From Alphaproteobacteria bacterium (lineage in GTDB: Bacteria > Pseudomonadota > Alphaproteobacteria > Rhizobiales > JAKIUO01), in contig JAJRPI010000060.1 in assembly GCA_024280895.1 (NCBI GenBank), forward strand, positions 1 through 64,000: a stretch of DNA of 64,000 bases, given 5' to 3'. Below are positions 36,915 through 53,475 of the stretch, in pieces; the stretch's first letter is position 1; every line of letters starts with the position of its first letter. The position numbers and the translations under genes are program-made. The notes below the pieces were generated by a model, which was not told where the DNA came from, ran no database searches, and saw nothing but the letters and a program-made list of their open reading frames with translations.

Positions 36915-39900
36915 CTAGTTCAGTGTGCTGGTTATTTGCGGACCACTGGTCTGCTTCAGTCGTTGTCCAAACGCCTTGATAAAGGCTTCCAGAGTATCAA
37001 TGTCAGCAATATCACGGGCCAGCCGGCCAACCGCACTGGCACTCGACTTAAGGGGGTCGGTAATCATTGCAAAGGCCTCGGCATCCACGCCACGAGCCAT
37101 TTTCTCGGCATATTTATCGCGCAACCGGCCAACGCCTAGCTGGTCACCACCAAGAGTATAGGAAATGGCCGCGCGCAATATCTGCATGCGGGCTTTGGCG
37201 GGTAGCTCCCCTGGCGTCTGCCACTGTGTACCAAGCAGTTTTTCATACTGTTCCCCGGCCTGTGTCCATTTTTCACCATTCCACAGCGCCAGAGACTTTA
37301 TTTCTCCCGCTTCACTACTGTCATCTCTGGCCAGCAATTCAAGCGCTGGTCCAGAGCGACCGAGTTCGGCATAAGCTCTTGCCTCCAGTAATCTGCGTGC
37401 GTCACGTACCTGCGCTGGCAATTTGGGCTGGCGCGATTGATAAAGCGCTTTCAACGCCTTTTTAGGACGTTGCTGCAGCAGATGAACCATAGCCAGTCGA
37501 ATGGCGACTTGCGCCCGCCCAGCACCTTTCAAACGCCGCGTAACCTGATGCTCCAGCAATCCAGCGGCCTTATCGAGCAAATCGACCTTGATCAGGCGGT
37601 CTGCCAGACGGCGGATCATTTCGTCTCCAAGGCGACCAGGCGGGGTCATATGTTTATGATCGTAAAACAAAGCTAAAGCCTTGATGGGGGGCAAACTATC
37701 CGCTTTACCCTGCAAAAACAGATCCTGGAACTGAGTTTTCATGCGGTCTTGCAGAGCCAGGGCGCGTGCGGAACGAGGAAAGGCTTTCACCGCCGTCTTC
37801 ATCAATGTAAATGCCTCATTATACCGTCCTTTGGCCAGATGCAGATCAGCCAGCCGGTATAAGACTTCCAATTCAACATCGTCGCCTCGCCAGACAACCG
37901 ACAATCGTTCTAATATATCGATACCGGCATCCGGTTTCAGCTCTCCCATTCGCAGTCGCAAGTCCGTTAAATGAAACACTGCTTTCGCTGTGACCGGGCG
38001 AATATCAGCTTTGGTCGCATCTGCGTAGAGTTGCAGGGCTTCGCGAGGCCGGTTCTGCAATTCCATCAACCGTCCCTCCAAAAGCTGGTTCATGGCGCTT
38101 TGCAGGGGGGTGAGGCCTTGCTTGGGCATATTGTCGAGTTCGGACCCAGCAAGTATCGGGTTCTTCTTTTCGATGGCGACATCCGCCCCGACCAGGCGAA
38201 ACATCGCCTGTTGGTTCGGTAGATAAGACTTGATGACCGGTTCGCCGCGCTTCATCTCAGCCAATGACCGATCAAAATTTTTCAACTTGTATGCCGCAAT
38301 GCCTCTCCATAGGGAGGCATGTTTATTATTTGCAAGATCATTGGTTTTAAGATCTTCTTCGGCAAGCTTATAGCGCCGTAACAACACATTGGACATGCCT
38401 CGCAGAAGCCGGAAGACGGGATCTTTGAGAACTTCCTCATCTTGGCTCGCGGTAATTGCCAGCATGCCAAGCGCCTCAGGAGCCAATCCGCGTGATAGCC
38501 AGTGCTGCGCCAGATCAAGCCGCGCCCGGCGTTGAGCTCGTCCACTATTGCTGACAATCTTCTTTTCGAGATCAAGTGTCCGCTTGATGAATTTGCCAAG
38601 TTTACGGCTATCAGCACTGTTAAACACCAGTTTGCGGGCCTGAATACGTCGTTTATTATGTGGATTTTCAGCCTCAGAGATAACTTTTTGAAGGTCACCT
38701 GACAGATACAGACCATCGACCCCGCTTATTTTAAGCCCCTGATCTAAATTCGTCACACGCAAGCTATCTGATAACGGGCGAACGACAATCCCATGAATAG
38801 TCTGAAATAGCTGAAACTCCACATGATCATGTATTTTTTTTATGCTTTTTGCTGGCCCCTTACTGGTCCGGACCAGTAGATCATCACCGCTAGACCGGTC
38901 TTTGATCTGGTGCAGTCGCCCCTTAGACGAGGTCGCAATATAAACTTCTTCAACCCCCGCACTATTGACCCGTTTGGCTGGCTTGTACTTTTTCGAGCTG
39001 CCGGTCACAAGGTCGCCAATGCTGATATTCCAGTTGGTATTTCGTTGTGAAACTGACGACAACCAAGGACCTGAAAGCTGAAACTCGAAAAGCTGACTTT
39101 TATCTAGCATACTATGGCGAATATCATTGACGATCCCGCCAAGCTGAGATTTCATTCCAGTCAGGTCAATTTTCTTGGCACTATCCACCAATATCCACAA
39201 CGTCTCATTGCGCTGAAAAATCGCCGCGGCCACATCTTTCTTTTTAAATGGAAAGCGAAGCTGCACGCTATTTTCATTGCGCACGATCTCAATCTCATTG
39301 CTGATTTGTATAGGGGCTTGCGGTTTCTCAGATTTTGCCACCACCTGGTTTTTAAAGGGTTCAAAGCCCCCGCGCGGCGCGGCCTTGGCATGAGCCATTG
39401 CCCCAGCGTCAGCGTCAGCGTCAGCGTCAGCGACGGGTATCTTTCCGCCAGGTTTTATCATAGGAGCAGCTGACGCTTTTTGCGCCGCCTTCTTCGCAGG
39501 CGAAACCAAGCGGCTAGCGCCATCAATCACAACTGTTCCAGCTAGTTTTTTAGGCTCGCCAGAAGGACTGTCGGAAAGGACAGGAGCTTTGGGTGTCGTT
39601 ACCATGGCCTTCACAGGCTCATTCCTAGCGGTGGCTGTTTTTTGTTTAATCTGTTTGTTGGTGTTTATGATGTCTTGTTTTGAACGCACAGGCAAAGGCG
39701 GTGAAAGCTGAGTTGTTTGTGCCTGCTTTTCTTTGGGGCGAACGGGCGCAGTTTTAGACCGGGCGGGTGCTGCTGCGGGCGCACTGTTTGCTGGCGTCTC
39801 TATAGCAGGTAATGAAATTTCTTCCAACTTCTGGGAGCCTTGATTTGCACCTTTTGGAGCTGTCGCAGCATAAAGTTGGCGCTCGATTTTAGACAATTTG

Positions 39901-40763
39901 AGGGGTTTGTTGATCGTCAGGTCGACAACATAATTTTGTCCCTCACGAAACGCACGCACCTTCGTACCTTTGACAACCTCCATGATGATCTTCAGGCTTT
40001 TAGGTCCAGCGACGTGCTTAATGCGCTTGAGATTTGGCGGCGGATTGATTTTCAGATGAGCCAGATCCGGAATAGCGCGCCCGCCAAACAAAATGATGAC
40101 GTCATTTCCCTTGCGCGTGAACTGGGCGGTTACGAATCTGTTCCAATTAAACGAAATCCGGTGAAAGGTCGGTTGCTTGGCATAGTGGACATCAACCAGC
40201 AATGGATCTGTTTGCAACGCTTCTTGGCGCGCCTGCTCCTCAGCTACCAAACGGGCGGTTTCAACCGCTTTGGCCAGCTTATCGACAATATCTTGCGGGA
40301 TGCCAGGTGGGCGGCCCCGCCAGTTTTTTGACAAAAAATCGACAATTAGATGGTTGCCTGCCCGTAGCACGCTTACTTTAAAATCGCGCACCATGGCAAA
40401 CCGCAGTCCATATCCATCGGGATCACGGCGTGCAATCGTCAAGATATTGGGTAGCTTAGCTGCAACGTCACCAAGGTTTACGGCAACAGATTTCTTGAAT
40501 TTGAGAACAAACACGGTTGAGATGGTTTTCGAAGAAAATTTCGGCAGATTGTCAAATTCGAAAACAAGGCGGGTGAAGCCCTTCTTTTCTCGAATTTCCA
40601 GCGAGGCATCACGTTCACTAGCCCACCCTGGAACCGCACTCCACGATATCACAAGGGTCGCCAGCAAAATGAGAAAGCTGTTTTGGGCGTATTTCCGGTC
40701 GACATTCATCAGGTGCATGTACCCATCAAGGTGCTTGTTATTCGGAAAACCACGCCACTGCAT
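36915..40763 (-). CDS. Giant periplasmic AMIN/TPR-like protein of the flagellar locus
   Basis: A 1282-residue protein with a signal peptide after Met-Asn-Val (SFLILLATLVISWSAVPGWA). Three beta-rich, AMIN-like segments lie at about 55-150, 190-290 and 490-600. Between them is a long Pro/Ala/Lys-rich linker with Asp-Ala dipeptides (about 435-455). Residues of about 740-1250 are helical tetratricopeptide-like repeats. It is last in the leftward series fliL-fliM-DUF6468-motE. This suggests a periplasmic role in motility or peptidoglycan localisation, perhaps as partner of MotE, but that is inference. Several ATGs compete as start. Confidence 0.75.
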   Translation of the reverse strand: MQWRGFPNNKHLDGYMHLMNVDRKYAQNSFLILLATLVISWSAVPGWASERDASLEIREKKGFTRLVFEFDNLPKFSSKTISTVFVLKFKKSVAVNLGDVAAKLPNILTIARRDPDGYGLRFAMVRDFKVSVLRAGNHLIVDFLSKNWRGRPPGIPQDIVDKLAKAVETARLVAEEQARQEALQTDPLLVDVHYAKQPTFHRISFNWNRFVTAQFTRKGNDVIILFGGRAIPDLAHLKINPPPNLKRIKHVAGPKSLKIIMEVVKGTKVRAFREGQNYVVDLTINKPLKLSKIERQLYAATAPKGANQGSQKLEEISLPAIETPANSAPAAAPARSKTAPVRPKEKQAQTTQLSPPLPVRSKQDIINTNKQIKQKTATARNEPVKAMVTTPKAPVLSDSPSGEPKKLAGTVVIDGASRLVSPAKKAAQKASAAPMIKPGGKIPVADADADADAGAMAHAKAAPRGGFEPFKNQVVAKSEKPQAPIQISNEIEIVRNENSVQLRFPFKKKDVAAAIFQRNETLWILVDSAKKIDLTGMKSQLGGIVNDIRHSMLDKSQLFEFQLSGPWLSSVSQRNTNWNISIGDLVTGSSKKYKPAKRVNSAGVEEVYIATSSKGRLHQIKDRSSGDDLLVRTSKGPAKSIKKIHDHVEFQLFQTIHGIVVRPLSDSLRVTNLDQGLKISGVDGLYLSGDLQKVISEAENPHNKRRIQARKLVFNSADSRKLGKFIKRTLDLEKKIVSNSGRAQRRARLDLAQHWLSRGLAPEALGMLAITASQDEEVLKDPVFRLLRGMSNVLLRRYKLAEEDLKTNDLANNKHASLWRGIAAYKLKNFDRSLAEMKRGEPVIKSYLPNQQAMFRLVGADVAIEKKNPILAGSELDNMPKQGLTPLQSAMNQLLEGRLMELQNRPREALQLYADATKADIRPVTAKAVFHLTDLRLRMGELKPDAGIDILERLSVVWRGDDVELEVLYRLADLHLAKGRYNEAFTLMKTAVKAFPRSARALALQDRMKTQFQDLFLQGKADSLPPIKALALFYDHKHMTPPGRLGDEMIRRLADRLIKVDLLDKAAGLLEHQVTRRLKGAGRAQVAIRLAMVHLLQQRPKKALKALYQSRQPKLPAQVRDARRLLEARAYAELGRSGPALELLARDDSSEAGEIKSLALWNGEKWTQAGEQYEKLLGTQWQTPGELPAKARMQILRAAISYTLGGDQLGVGRLRDKYAEKMARGVDAEAFAMITDPLKSSASAVGRLARDIADIDTLEAFIKAFGQRLKQTSGPQITSTLN
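39405..39434. repeat. Hexanucleotide tandem repeat inside the TPR-protein gene
   Basis: Four perfect AGCGTC units and one variant AGCGAC stand in a row. On the coding strand they encode alternating Asp-Ala. Units of six bases change length without breaking the frame, so the linker length may vary between strains. Confidence 0.8.
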
Positions 40764-40921
40764 TTGACAAGCACGTCATTCGAATCACCTGCAAGTCTAG
40801 TCCTATGCAGGCTAGTGGCAAGTTAATCGCAACACAATCTGGCCAATCTCACAAAGTTATCACTGGAAAAACACCAATCATGGCCCAAAAACCACATCTA
40901 GAATGATCGTAAAGCGCTTTA

Positions 40922-41629
40922 CTAGTTCCCGTTAATTTTGGGAAGATCATCGAGATTTTTCTCAGTAAACTTTCGCTGTGTCATGCCAGCCAGAGAAATG
41001 GTCATTTCGCGAGCCTTCACAGGGGCCATGGCAGCCAGAATTGCTGACATAACCTGAGGTTTCATATTTTTCATGATCCCCAACAATACTTTTTTATCAA
41101 GTTCGTTAAAAATACGCGCTGCCCCTTTGGGCTTCATCGAAGAGTACATCTTGACCAGCATCGAAAATTGCGTCTTTTTTTGTTCTTTTTGCACCTTGGC
41201 AAAACGCTGAATTTTCTTATCAAGCTTCTTAAGCATGGCAATTCTTTGATCAACGCGCTTTTCCGCCGCCTTGATCAAATTGTGGCGCAAGCCAAGTTCT
41301 TTTTCACGGGCATCAAGTTGTTCACGCCGCTTGGAAAGGCTCGTCAGCAAATCAATTTCGGCCTTGGATCGATGGTCATCGCGGGTCAGGCTCACTATAT
41401 CTTTGGGCGGGGCTTTCTTGGCCCCAATCCGCTTGGCGGCGAGACTTGAATCCTTTGCCTTTGGTTTGTCCGTCGCATTACCGCGAGGCGCATCGGGAAT
41501 TGCCTTGGCAATCGACGACGACGTGCCCGTCACGATGTTTTTATCACCCAGTAACAAGCCTGCCATTTTCAAGGACAGCAAGGAAAAGGCGGCGAGAGCC
41601 ACGAGAGGTAAAAAGCGGATCGTTTTCAT
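40922..41629 (-). CDS. motE: MotE-like flagellar motility protein (MgtE N-domain)
   Basis: A 235-residue protein with an N-terminal signal/anchor (FLPLVALAAFSLLSLKMAGLLLG) and a charged coiled coil (about 90-155). The C-terminal MgtE-N-like domain reads MYSSMKPKGAARIFNELDKK..MKNMKPQVMSAILAAMAP. MotE of Sinorhizobium is a periplasmic chaperone of the motor protein MotC. The ATG overlaps the stop of the upstream gene (TGATG). The giant TPR gene follows. Confidence 0.85.
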   Translation of the reverse strand: MKTIRFLPLVALAAFSLLSLKMAGLLLGDKNIVTGTSSSIAKAIPDAPRGNATDKPKAKDSSLAAKRIGAKKAPPKDIVSLTRDDHRSKAEIDLLTSLSKRREQLDAREKELGLRHNLIKAAEKRVDQRIAMLKKLDKKIQRFAKVQKEQKKTQFSMLVKMYSSMKPKGAARIFNELDKKVLLGIMKNMKPQVMSAILAAMAPVKAREMTISLAGMTQRKFTEKNLDDLPKINGN

Positions 41630-42135
41630 CAAATTATTCCCTTTGCATCCACCATCAAATCTTCAGTAGATTGGGGGGCCTGTGGGGCCGCATCGAGCTC
41701 CAGGTCATCAAAGCCAAGCATCGTGTTGCGCAGATCACTGGCCGTCTCGACGACGGTATCAATGGTGTTTTGCGGCACCGATGATCTGCGCGCATGCTGG
41801 CTGGTTTCCCCATGACCAATCATAATGACTAGCTTGCTTATGGTCTGCTCGGCACTTTCGATTTCGCCCTTCAAAAGACGGTTCATATTGCGCCCCTTGT
41901 CGATCTGACTGGCCAGTTCTTCGCCAGAATCTTGAACGGTCGCACGCAGCCCCTGAATAGCCTCGTCAGCCTTGGCAGTGGCGACTGAAAGCTCGCGGAT
42001 AAACTGGTGCATGCCTTTTTGCTCATCGCGCAACCGCTCCAACTTTCGATTGACGCTGATGCAGTAGAAAATCGTCGCGACCAAAAGGGTCGATAGCAAA
42101 CCTTCAACGATTAATCCAAGAGAGCCTTCAATCAT
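41629..42135 (-). CDS. DUF6468 flagellar-locus protein
   Basis: A 168-residue protein with one N-terminal membrane span (SLGLIVEGLLSTLLVATIFYC) and a cytoplasmic coiled coil. It is a conserved alphaproteobacterial protein always seen near fliM/fliL and motE; its function is unknown. GGTGATATC precedes the ATG. It lies 83 bases after fliM and is coupled to motE. Confidence 0.8.
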   Translation of the reverse strand: MIEGSLGLIVEGLLSTLLVATIFYCISVNRKLERLRDEQKGMHQFIRELSVATAKADEAIQGLRATVQDSGEELASQIDKGRNMNRLLKGEIESAEQTISKLVIMIGHGETSQHARRSSVPQNTIDTVVETASDLRNTMLGFDDLELDAAPQAPQSTEDLMVDAKGII

Positions 42136-42218: not shown

Positions 42219-43502
42219 TCAACCCACAGAGTCTGTGAGCACTCCCTCGGCCTGCACGCCAATGCCACGATTAAGACGAATGGCAACATGGCCGTTTTTG
42301 CTCCCCATCACCCCCTCACCCAAAGAGATATTCCCGCTCTTGATACAAATGGAATCATTGGGGGCACATTCAAGCATAACCGTCTCGCCGACTTCCAATT
42401 TCATTAACCGCTGCAAGGGCATGCTCATCTCTGACAAGATCGCCTCAACTGGCAATTCGGTATTCCAGATCTCATGAGCCAGATGCTCTTCCCAGATCGT
42501 GTCATTACCAAACTTTTCCCCCATGAACCCTTGAAGTAATAGCTCCCGGATAGGTTCCAGAGTCGAAAGCGGCAACACCACCTCAATACGTCCACCACGA
42601 TCTTCCATATCAATCCGAAGCTCGACCCGAATGGCCGCATTGGATTCTCTGGCGATCGTCGCAAAGCGCGGATTGGTCTCGAGGCGATCAAGCTCGAATT
42701 TGACCGGTGACAGAGGCCGAAAAGCATTCTCTGTATCTTCCAGCACGACCTCGATCATACGCTTGACGAGATTGGTTTCAATCGTTGTGTATGGTCGCCC
42801 CTCGATGCGAATAGCATCCGAACCACGCCCGCCGAGCAACACATCAACGATGGAATAGATCAGATTAGACTCAACCGTCACCATGCCAAAATTATCCCAT
42901 TCTTTGGCATGAAATACCGCAAGCATGGCAGGTAATGGAATAGAGTTCATATATTCGCCAAAGCGAATTGTAGTTATTGAATCGAGGGTGACTTCAACAT
43001 TGTCTGATGTGAAATTGCGCAGACTTGTCGTCAACAAGCGCACCAATCGATCGAAGATAATCTCAAGCATCGGCAAGCGTTCATACGAGACAATCCCCGA
43101 ATTCAAAATGGCTTTTATGCCGGTCAGATCTTTGTCATCACCTTCGCTGGCCTTAAATCCCAGTAGGCTGTCGATTTCGCCTTGAGAAAGCAATCTGGCA
43201 GCTCGTTCAGTTGAGCTTTCATCCATTCCGCCATCGACCAGAGACGCCCATTGAGCGGCCACGTCGCCGCCGCCGCCGCCTTCATCACCTTCGATACCAA
43301 GATCAGCACCCCAGGCCGCAGCAAGGTCATCTTGACCGCCTTCTTCGTCTTCAAGGCCTGTATCAGCGCCCCAGGCCGCAGCAAGATCATCTTGCTCTCC
43401 GGCCTCTTCCTTGATGCCTATATCGCCTTCATCAGCAAGGCCCATTTCAGCGCCCCAAGCATCGGCCAAATCATCCTGGTTTCCATCACCACCTGAAGTC
43501 AT
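42219..43502 (-). CDS. fliM: Flagellar motor switch protein FliM with repeated N-terminal extension
   Basis: FliM is the C-ring protein that binds CheY-P to switch rotation. The usual N-terminal CheY-binding motif, here LLSQGEIDSLLGF, sits at residues 104-116 instead of the very start. The middle domain (MLEIIFDRLVRLLTTSLRNF, SIVDVLLGGRG) and the C-terminal SpoA-like domain are normal. The added first 100 residues are acidic and carry DDLAxAW at 10-16, 38-44 and 58-64 plus DVAAQW at 80-85. AGGAGATCAGAGTA precedes the ATG. It is downstream of fliL. Confidence 0.95.
   Translation of the reverse strand: MTSGGDGNQDDLADAWGAEMGLADEGDIGIKEEAGEQDDLAAAWGADTGLEDEEGGQDDLAAAWGADLGIEGDEGGGGGDVAAQWASLVDGGMDESSTERAARLLSQGEIDSLLGFKASEGDDKDLTGIKAILNSGIVSYERLPMLEIIFDRLVRLLTTSLRNFTSDNVEVTLDSITTIRFGEYMNSIPLPAMLAVFHAKEWDNFGMVTVESNLIYSIVDVLLGGRGSDAIRIEGRPYTTIETNLVKRMIEVVLEDTENAFRPLSPVKFELDRLETNPRFATIARESNAAIRVELRIDMEDRGGRIEVVLPLSTLEPIRELLLQGFMGEKFGNDTIWEEHLAHEIWNTELPVEAILSEMSMPLQRLMKLEVGETVMLECAPNDSICIKSGNISLGEGVMGSKNGHVAIRLNRGIGVQAEGVLTDSVG
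43250..43480. repeat. Imperfect tandem repeats in the fliM 5' region
   Basis: Units of about 60 bases encode QDDLAAAWGADTGLEDEEGG-type peptides. Two neighbouring copies are nearly identical in DNA (the GCCCCAGGCCGCAGCAAG core recurs), with a more diverged copy on each side. Confidence 0.8.
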
Positions 43503-43554: not shown

Positions 43555-44061
43555 CTATTGGATGATAATTTCCTTAAATAAAACACGCTTTATTTGGGCG
43601 GGATGAATAGTGATATTGATCCGCCGCATCAATTCGTTTTTGAGGCGATACACCCCAGCTGATCCTTCCAGATCAGAACGCCTCATTTCGCGCAGATAAA
43701 TTTGAAACATGTCTTGAATGCGCGGCATTTTCGGCGTCAACGCATCAATATTTTCCTGGCTATCTGCCTCAATAGCAATTTTCAACTTAAGATATTGTGG
43801 CCGCTTGCGTCCCGACGCCAAATTCACCACCATTTCGGGGATGTCGAAATATATCGATGGCGCTTGAGCTTCAGCCGCTTTTCCATCCATAGGGCCACTG
43901 CTGAAGAACCCCATAAAATAAGCCCCACCGGCGCCACCAGCGAGCACCACGACAGCCCCGATTATAATCATCATCATCGGGAGCTTTTTTTTACCACCCT
44001 GTTCGGCATTTTCGTCACCATCAACGATTTCTTTTTCGCTGACTTCTTCTGTCTTTGCCAT
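43555..44061 (-). CDS. fliL: Flagellar basal body-associated protein FliL
   Basis: A 168-residue stator-associated protein. It has a short charged cytoplasmic tail, a single span (MMMIIIGAVVVLAGGAGGAYFM) and a periplasmic domain with YFDIPEMVVNLAS and a C-terminal VLFKEIIIQ. GGGAGAAG precedes the ATG at 44061; the longer frame upstream is not conserved and crosses the promoter region. fliM follows after 52 bases. Confidence 0.92.
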   Translation of the reverse strand: MAKTEEVSEKEIVDGDENAEQGGKKKLPMMMIIIGAVVVLAGGAGGAYFMGFFSSGPMDGKAAEAQAPSIYFDIPEMVVNLASGRKRPQYLKLKIAIEADSQENIDALTPKMPRIQDMFQIYLREMRRSDLEGSAGVYRLKNELMRRINITIHPAQIKRVLFKEIIIQ

Positions 44062-44150
44062 GGCGCGTCTTCTCCCGGAGCCTTGATTATTCCACATCAC
44101 GCAAAGCGGTCTTGTGCTAATCCGCTCGGCTATTTTTGCCGCCCAAACAG

Positions 44151-44165
44151 TTAATCCTTTATTAC
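44151..44165 (-). promoter_or_regulatory. Candidate CtrA site before fliL
   Basis: TTAA-N7-TTAC differs by one base from TTAA-N7-TTAA. In Caulobacter fliLM is a CtrA-dependent class II operon, so the location is apt. A single near-match in AT-rich DNA can arise by chance. Confidence 0.35.
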
Positions 44166-51798: not shown

Positions 51799-53475
51799 AT
51801 GGGTGATATCTCAATTTCGAACGGTGTCCGTTCAAACCTAATGGCTCTTCAGAGCACGACACGCATGATCGAAGACACACAGAACCGTCTTGCCACCGGC
51901 AAACGCGTTAATAGTGCGCTCGACAATCCTGCTAACTTCTTCACGGCTTCTGCCATGAACAATCGCGCTGGCGACCTTAGCTCTCTTCTCGACAGTATGA
52001 ATACTGGCGTGAATACAATCAAAGCTGCCGACAACGCGCTTACTTCTATTACCAAGCTTGTTGAAAGTGCCCAGGGTACTGCTCGTCAGGCCTTGCAAGA
52101 TGCAACTGGTGAAAAAGAAGCTTCCATCATTGGTGGAACCGCTCTTGGTACAGCAACAACCAAATCAAGTGGCGAAAATTTGTCCCTCGTAGATGATCTG
52201 AACTTTGACGTCGGCGATTCAATCAGTGTCACAACCACAAAAGATGGCGTGCCAACTGAATCCACGATCACAATTAGTGCAACAACAACTGTAAAAGATC
52301 TGGTCGCGGATATCAATTCAGGTCTTGGCGGCAAAGTAGATGCCGAAGTTACATCTGATGGAAAACTCTCCATTACTGCCAAGGATGGCGCCTCACTTGA
52401 TCTGAAGATCAACGATTCTGCATCTGGCCCAACAGACAACAATCTGCAAAACCTCTTTGGTGCGACCGCCACAGTCAATGGTACTGCCGGTGTTGCTGTG
52501 CAAGGCGCTGCTGGAGCTCAGATTGATACTCTTCTCACAGCTGTCGGCACTGCCGAGACTGCGAAAACAAATGCAGATGCAACTGCAGCCTTGACTGTTA
52601 CAGCTGATCTGCAAACCACTGCTGATCTGACTGATGCTACCGCGCTGACCGCAACTGCTGTTACAGACACCGCTACATATGATGCTGCTGCTGTTGCTGC
52701 TGCCGCTGCTAACGGTGGTGCAGGCGGAGATGCTGCTCTTGACGCTGCCGCAGCTACCGCATTGACGACCAAAAACGCTTCGGATACTGCTCGTGACAAC
52801 GCCTTGGCCGCGGACGCTGCCGTCGTTTCCGCACAAGCAGACGATGATGCAGCTACTGCCGCCGCGACTGCCTTAACAGCTGCTCAGACTGCGTTGACTG
52901 ATGGGGTTGCCTCTGACGCAACGTCTGAAGCTCAGTCCATCGCAGCTCCGGCAACAGATGCAAACGGCACTCGCGAAAAACTGGCCGCTCAGTTCAATGA
53001 TCTACTTAGTCAGATTACCGATCTTGCTGAAGACGCTGATTTCAATGGTGTTAACTTGCTGCAGGGCGACGACTTGAAGGTTACCTTCAACGAAAAATCT
53101 GGATCAGCAGAGAATTCCCTGACCATTAAAGGGGTAACACTTGATGCGAACGGCCTTGGGCTTAGTTCAATCACTGGAGATTTCCAGTCCGACACGGATA
53201 TTGAAGGCGCCCTCACCCAGATCAAGGATTCTCTGACAACTCTTCGTCAGCAGGCTTCTGAATTTGGTTCAAGTCTCTCGGTTGTTGAAACCCGTCAGGA
53301 TTTCACAAGCATGATGGTCAACACACTTGAAAAAGGTGCTTCCGACCTGACGCTGGCTGATGTCAATAAAGAGGGTGCTAATATGCTCGCTCTGCAGACT
53401 TCACAGCAGCTTGCGACCACCACAATGGGTATCGCGAACCGGAACGACCAGGCAATCTTGTCCTTCCTTCGTTAG
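51799..53475 (+). CDS. fliC: Flagellin with long Ala-rich central domain
   Basis: The filament subunit, 558 residues. The D0/D1 N-terminus (SNGVRSNLMALQSTTRMIED, QNRLATGKRVNSALDNP) and C-terminus (TSMMVNTLEKGASDLTLADV, ending ANRNDQAILSFLR) are normal for alphaproteobacterial flagellins. Residues about 150-215 resemble the flagellin hook-IN motif. Residues about 245-390 are an Ala/Thr/Asp-rich insertion with few large side chains, probably exposed on the filament surface. AAAAGG precedes the ATG. A terminator follows, then flaF. Confidence 0.96.
   Translation: MGDISISNGVRSNLMALQSTTRMIEDTQNRLATGKRVNSALDNPANFFTASAMNNRAGDLSSLLDSMNTGVNTIKAADNALTSITKLVESAQGTARQALQDATGEKEASIIGGTALGTATTKSSGENLSLVDDLNFDVGDSISVTTTKDGVPTESTITISATTTVKDLVADINSGLGGKVDAEVTSDGKLSITAKDGASLDLKINDSASGPTDNNLQNLFGATATVNGTAGVAVQGAAGAQIDTLLTAVGTAETAKTNADATAALTVTADLQTTADLTDATALTATAVTDTATYDAAAVAAAAANGGAGGDAALDAAAATALTTKNASDTARDNALAADAAVVSAQADDDAATAAATALTAAQTALTDGVASDATSEAQSIAAPATDANGTREKLAAQFNDLLSQITDLAEDADFNGVNLLQGDDLKVTFNEKSGSAENSLTIKGVTLDANGLGLSSITGDFQSDTDIEGALTQIKDSLTTLRQQASEFGSSLSVVETRQDFTSMMVNTLEKGASDLTLADVNKEGANMLALQTSQQLATTTMGIANRNDQAILSFLR

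Follow-up and report, generated by a model that had tools for sequence, protein, structure and literature searches.

A repeated tryptophan-centred motif in the N-terminal tail of alphaproteobacterial FliM, a candidate docking site on the flagellar switch

The motor switch protein FliM encoded in the window (the whole 64,000-nucleotide stretch of alphaproteobacterial DNA analysed here) carries four copies of a short tryptophan-centred motif, the W motif, in an acidic tail ahead of its CheY-docking motif. Comparison with FliM and FliN proteins from other genomes indicates that the W motif is probably a widespread, undescribed candidate docking site on the control ring of the flagellar motor. The FliM of the window has a known shape, of which it represents the extreme in copy number, and is not peculiar to this organism; the new and unexpected part of the finding is that one and the same W motif is shared between FliM and FliN.

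The fliM gene and its acidic tail

The product of fliM matches the Pfam domains FliM (5.4e-65) and FliMN_C, or SPOA (6.9e-13), and its LLGGRG segment around residue 224 contains the GGxG motif, the predicted contact with FliG (motif named in PMC7355467). An AGGAG lies about 11 bases 5' of the ATG at 43502, in support of this start codon. The features considered are as follows.

42219 to 43502, minus strand: fliM, motor switch protein of 427 residues (open reading frame, AGGAG, Pfam FliM and FliMN_C)
43191 to 43502, minus strand: acidic tail carrying the motif array, FliM residues 1–104 (29 acidic and 3 basic residues)
43443 to 43478, minus strand: motif copy 1, QDDLADAWGAEM, FliM residues 9–20
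43359 to 43394, minus strand: motif copy 2, QDDLAAAWGADT, FliM residues 37–48
43299 to 43334, minus strand: motif copy 3, QDDLAAAWGADL, FliM residues 57–68
43236 to 43271, minus strand: motif copy 4, GGDVAAQWASLV, FliM residues 78–89, the copy nearest the CheY motif
43155 to 43190, minus strand: canonical CheY-docking motif, LSQGEIDSLLGF, FliM residues 105–116
43276 to 43395, no strand assigned: two 60-base DNA units, 80% identical, representing the duplication of copies 2 and 3
43555 to 44154, minus strand: fliL, upstream neighbour of fliM
41629 to 42135, minus strand: gene for a DUF6468 protein, downstream neighbour of fliM

A first-pass annotation of this DNA had described about 100 extra residues with a repeated motif before the CheY segment, made up of three DDLA(A/D)AW copies and a related DVAAQW, and this description is borne out: the tail spans residues 1–104, the CheY motif follows from residue 105, and all four tail tryptophans (16, 44, 64, and 85) lie inside copies of D-D-[LV]-A-x-x-W-[GA]-A. 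None of 100,000 shuffles of the tail equalled that arrangement, and a chance origin of the array is excluded. An assembly error or a start-codon artefact was ruled out by three further species and by the ribosome-binding site; four copies are also found in two other species of the genus with separate assemblies (L002 and L018), and three in another (L003).

The CheY-docking motif of the FliM N-terminus has been defined as LSQxEIDxLL (PMC5677366), and an EIDxLL of this kind is present in LSQGEIDSLLGF. The W motif resembles it in being short, acidic, and hydrophobic, and in lying in the flexible N-terminus of FliM, but differs in being centred on tryptophan, flanked by alanine-rich sequence, repeated, and able to move between FliM and FliN; the units read DDLAxAW or DVAAQW and lack the E-I-D-x-L-L core.

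Elsewhere in the window, the region downstream of fliM (36915 to 42135) encodes the DUF6468 protein, a MotE-like protein, and a 1282-residue TPR protein, the last possibly a distant homologue of MotK, which has been reported beside motE in Caulobacteraceae (PMC10954123). A flagellin of 558 residues (51799 to 53475) contains a long low-complexity insert, rich in alanine, threonine, and aspartate, in the middle of the protein.

Conservation across alphaproteobacterial FliM tails

FliM N-termini were gathered from related loci and whole genomes and scanned by script. In a census of 170 alphaproteobacterial FliM tails, made with a matrix at a 1% shuffle threshold, 76% contained one or more copies of the motif, 49% two or more, and 11% three or more; three copies occur in several other lineages, and four in the genus of the window only. 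A strict pattern recovered 202 copies in 168 distinct tails, compared with 4.2 ± 2.0 in shuffles. Enrichment is seen ahead of the tryptophan for D at −6, L/M at −4, A at −3 and −2, and E/Q at −1, and after it for A/G/E at +1, A at +2, M/A at +3, and L/I/V/M at +4. Successive motifs lie a median of 21 residues apart, with the last a median of 23 residues ahead of the CheY motif, and across 16 aligned FliMs Trp64 and Trp85 are invariant while the linkers differ in length and sequence.

The first-pass annotation had regarded the displacement of the CheY motif as unusual, a view that the class does not sustain. The median tail in alphaproteobacteria is 57 residues, as against 104 in the window, and the FliM of C. 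crescentus, a partner of CheYII and the Cle proteins, has its CheY motif at residues 57–58 (PMC5677366); a displacement by about 50 residues is therefore the rule in alphaproteobacteria, Caulobacter included. Among the FliMs compared, L276 is most readily identified as that of C. crescentus or a very near relative, since the published FliM peptide lies at exactly residues 47–62. On this peptide match, the C. crescentus protein shares the displaced CheY motif but has one degenerate copy of the W motif, DDQAAMAQWASEN, in place of four strong ones, and its switch works, a counterpoint to the docking function favoured below. A literature search found no study of the Caulobacter FliM tail motif.

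Absence of the motif from close relatives with normal chemotaxis had been named beforehand as evidence that would weigh against a docking role. Relatives in the genus retain it (G001, G002, and G004 combine three to four copies with CheW), but class-wide 29 of 119 CheW-positive FliMs are without it. These 29 belong to the roughly one quarter of alphaproteobacterial FliMs that have no clear copy, and the motif is thus dispensable for switching in general.

History of the copies

The DNA units of the tail are 58–60 bases long and 74–80% identical, so that the earlier description of units of about 60 bases stands while "near-identical" overstated their likeness. Only copies 2 and 3 are spaced by exactly one 60-base unit. 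Tandem Repeats Finder reported no array with a period of about 60 bases in the tail DNA, the units being too diverged. Orthologous copies 1–4 of the three four-copy species (L001, L002, and L018) share 82–88% DNA identity (78% for copy 2 between L002 and L018), whereas the related copies 1–3 inside one genome share 63–78%, with many synonymous changes; the change from three to four copies therefore predates the split of these species. The rapid copy-number turnover once proposed for this tail is accordingly not supported: with no tandem array detected and with diverged units older than the species split, the tail does not look like a rapid tandem-repeat (slippage) locus. Amino-acid differences within the genus are slightly fewer in the motifs (4–6 of 46 positions) than in the linkers (7–10 of 55–58), and all gaps fall in linkers. 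Another alphaproteobacterial FliM tail (L163) contains four tandem units of (E/D)MDMAAAMAA, in which methionine replaces tryptophan, and this separate expansion implies that arrays have grown in FliM tails more than once.

Could the tail be a low-complexity acidic spacer, produced by replication slippage and serving no specific partner? Its acidic, Gly/Ala-rich composition, the duplication visible in the 60-base units, the variable tail lengths, and the quarter of FliMs without the motif would all fit such an origin. Nevertheless, motif residues persist throughout the class in tails whose linkers and lengths differ, 202 copies occur where 4 are expected, the copies have diverged at synonymous sites with the motif retained, and a related motif is found on the FliN of other classes. 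We consider the spacer explanation very improbable; a specific function for the W motif is highly probable.

The same motif on FliN

The first-pass annotation had suggested a search for the motif in FliN, which gave a divided answer. The FliN of the window genome itself (L072) has no W motif and was rejected as a second carrier in that genome. Among FliN N-termini of the phylum, however, tryptophan was found in none of 13 alphaproteobacterial sequences and in 30 of 48 others. The non-alphaproteobacterial motifs typically read DDWAAAMAEQ or LADEWAAAL, and six of these proteins have two to three W-x-x-[AM]-[LM] copies; in FliNs of the beta/gamma type, a class assigned from sequence and from likeness to Salmonella FliN, one to three N-terminal copies occur, usually one. 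A matrix trained on FliM scored the FliN tryptophan windows at −3.3, against −18.0 ± 1.0 in shuffles (about 14 SD). The FliN-type profile W-[AG]-x-A-[LM]-x-E is likewise found in the N-terminal tail of the window FliM, whose copies are without the EQ end. Four gamma-type FliMs lack the tail and start almost directly with LLSQDEIDALL. From this distribution it follows that the motif is carried by FliM in alphaproteobacteria and by FliN in other classes. In three FliNs (L258, L259, and L262) the W motif is followed by QDDIDAL, the order found in alphaproteobacterial FliM.

The N-terminus of FliN in Salmonella and E. coli, DDLWADALNEQ (residues 16–26 of the Salmonella sequence in 8umd), has the same W-x-x-A-[LM]-x-E-Q core. 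It differs from the array in the window in residing on FliN, in single copy, with three FliN per protomer, and in falling outside the modelled C-ring, since FliN begins at residue 45, 59, or 63 in the Salmonella model (PMC11087270). FliN/FliY proteins with a full or degenerate EIDAL are a precedent for N-terminal docking motifs spread over FliM, FliN, and FliY (PMC6946799); the motif treated there is EIDAL. A literature search that covered few subscription journals found no paper on a W motif in the N-terminus of FliM or FliN.

A DNA pattern run over the whole window genome, which left out the TTG leucine codon and so did not count copy 1, and which copy 4 does not fit, gave 16 matches against 7 in a reversed control; in this search the LAAAW core occurred in FliM only. 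Separately, several alphaproteobacterial FliN N-termini (L072, L105, L111, L115, and L130) share another short motif, roughly L-x-L-x-[ED]-[FL]. The window genome also encodes, away from the flagellar genes (G000 contig 35, 23597 to 23797; L073), a second FliN-like protein of about 76 residues consisting of SPOA only. It recalls FssF, a Caulobacter FliN paralogue that is required for chemotaxis and not for assembly (PMC11580411).

Association with chemotaxis genes and alternative partners

CheW was looked for in 139 flagellated alphaproteobacterial genomes, the counts being restricted to FliMs in which an EID motif could be recognised. A strong motif is present in 90 of 119 CheW-positive FliMs and in 2 of 13 CheW-negative ones; a relaxed threshold weakens the link (95 of 119 versus 5 of 13). 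When gain and loss of the motif were simulated on a tree of the FliM core, admittedly short and crude, the observed difference was reached in none of 300 runs at either threshold. In two families (f107 and f160) the motif is missing from CheW-negative species and from their CheW-positive sisters alike, and may therefore have been lost before CheW was. The association points to the chemotaxis system as the context of the motif. FliM with an intact EID motif was also seen in nine genomes in which no CheW was detected (G043, G082, G168, G348, G395, G422, G441, G481, and G548).

The same association would be expected if the copies were extra, weaker sites for CheY or CheY-like receivers, which would concentrate the response regulator locally and then pass it on to the EID motif. 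QDDLAAAWGA can be overlaid on QDEIDSLLGF with similar chemistry, the W motif sits directly ahead of the EID motif, and the FliNs L258, L259, and L262 pair a W motif with QDDIDAL. Two published results make this reading unlikely in our estimate. The ID57WA change abolished binding of CleA to residues 2–65 of C. crescentus FliM in a two-hybrid assay (PMC5677366); because that fragment should retain the single Caulobacter copy, judging by the L276 peptide match, this copy would be insufficient for CleA, with the provisos that it is degenerate and that CleA is one receiver only. In addition, the account of the CheY-bound C-ring gives CheY contacts with FliM and FliG only (PMC11528121).

Alternatively, the partner might be part of the rotor itself or of the export apparatus (SPOA clefts, FliH/FliI), with the motif aiding C-ring assembly instead of signalling; this would account for its being carried by either FliM or FliN. 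N-terminal elements of FliN and FliM swap between protomers at the base of the ring (PMC11528121), and tryptophans mediate the docking of FliH on FliM-FliN (PMC4443714). We nonetheless doubt an assembly role, given that models of assembled rings begin FliN only after the W region (PMC11087270), that many flagellated alphaproteobacteria are without the motif, and that its loss tracks chemotaxis genes.

A docking array on the flagellar switch

On balance, we lean towards a reading in which the FliM tail is an acidic tether whose four docking motifs would hold a putative chemotaxis- or motor-associated partner by avidity. The multivalent docking proposed in the first-pass annotation thus gains partial support, as the motif is conserved, short, repeated, adjacent to the CheY motif, set in an acidic low-complexity tail, and variable in copy number (zero to four). 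The tether would be flexible, with four copies of D-x-[LM]-A-x-x-W-[AG]-A-x-[LM]-x-E, each of which probably folds into a short amphipathic helix on binding. An AlphaFold prediction of the full FliM with 16 homologues had a mean pLDDT of 36, too low to be informative. Placed beside the CheY-docking motif, the array would present its copies around the C-ring base, where avidity could retain a partner from the motor or the chemotaxis system close to the switch.

FliG, FliM, and FliN occur in a 1:1:3 stoichiometry (PMC11528121). In most alphaproteobacteria the motif is therefore presented on the one FliM of each protomer, in one or two copies and sometimes three, and in beta/gamma types on three FliN per protomer, usually in one copy each; as FliM contributes one and FliN three subunits, copy number may govern how many docking sites are locally available. 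More tentatively, the Trp motif could be a second, so far undescribed docking site of the Proteobacterial switch, borne by FliM in alphaproteobacteria and by FliN in beta/gamma types including E. coli and Salmonella, that recruits one conserved chemotaxis-linked partner and whose copy number is tuned by duplication.

Although few molecular machines have been studied as thoroughly as the C-ring, the W motif, found on two of the three C-ring proteins, falls outside the modelled part of the Salmonella structure and did not come up in the literature searched. If the motif recruits a partner, the motor would have one more input, and the four-copy FliM of the window's genus would be the natural high-dose version of it.
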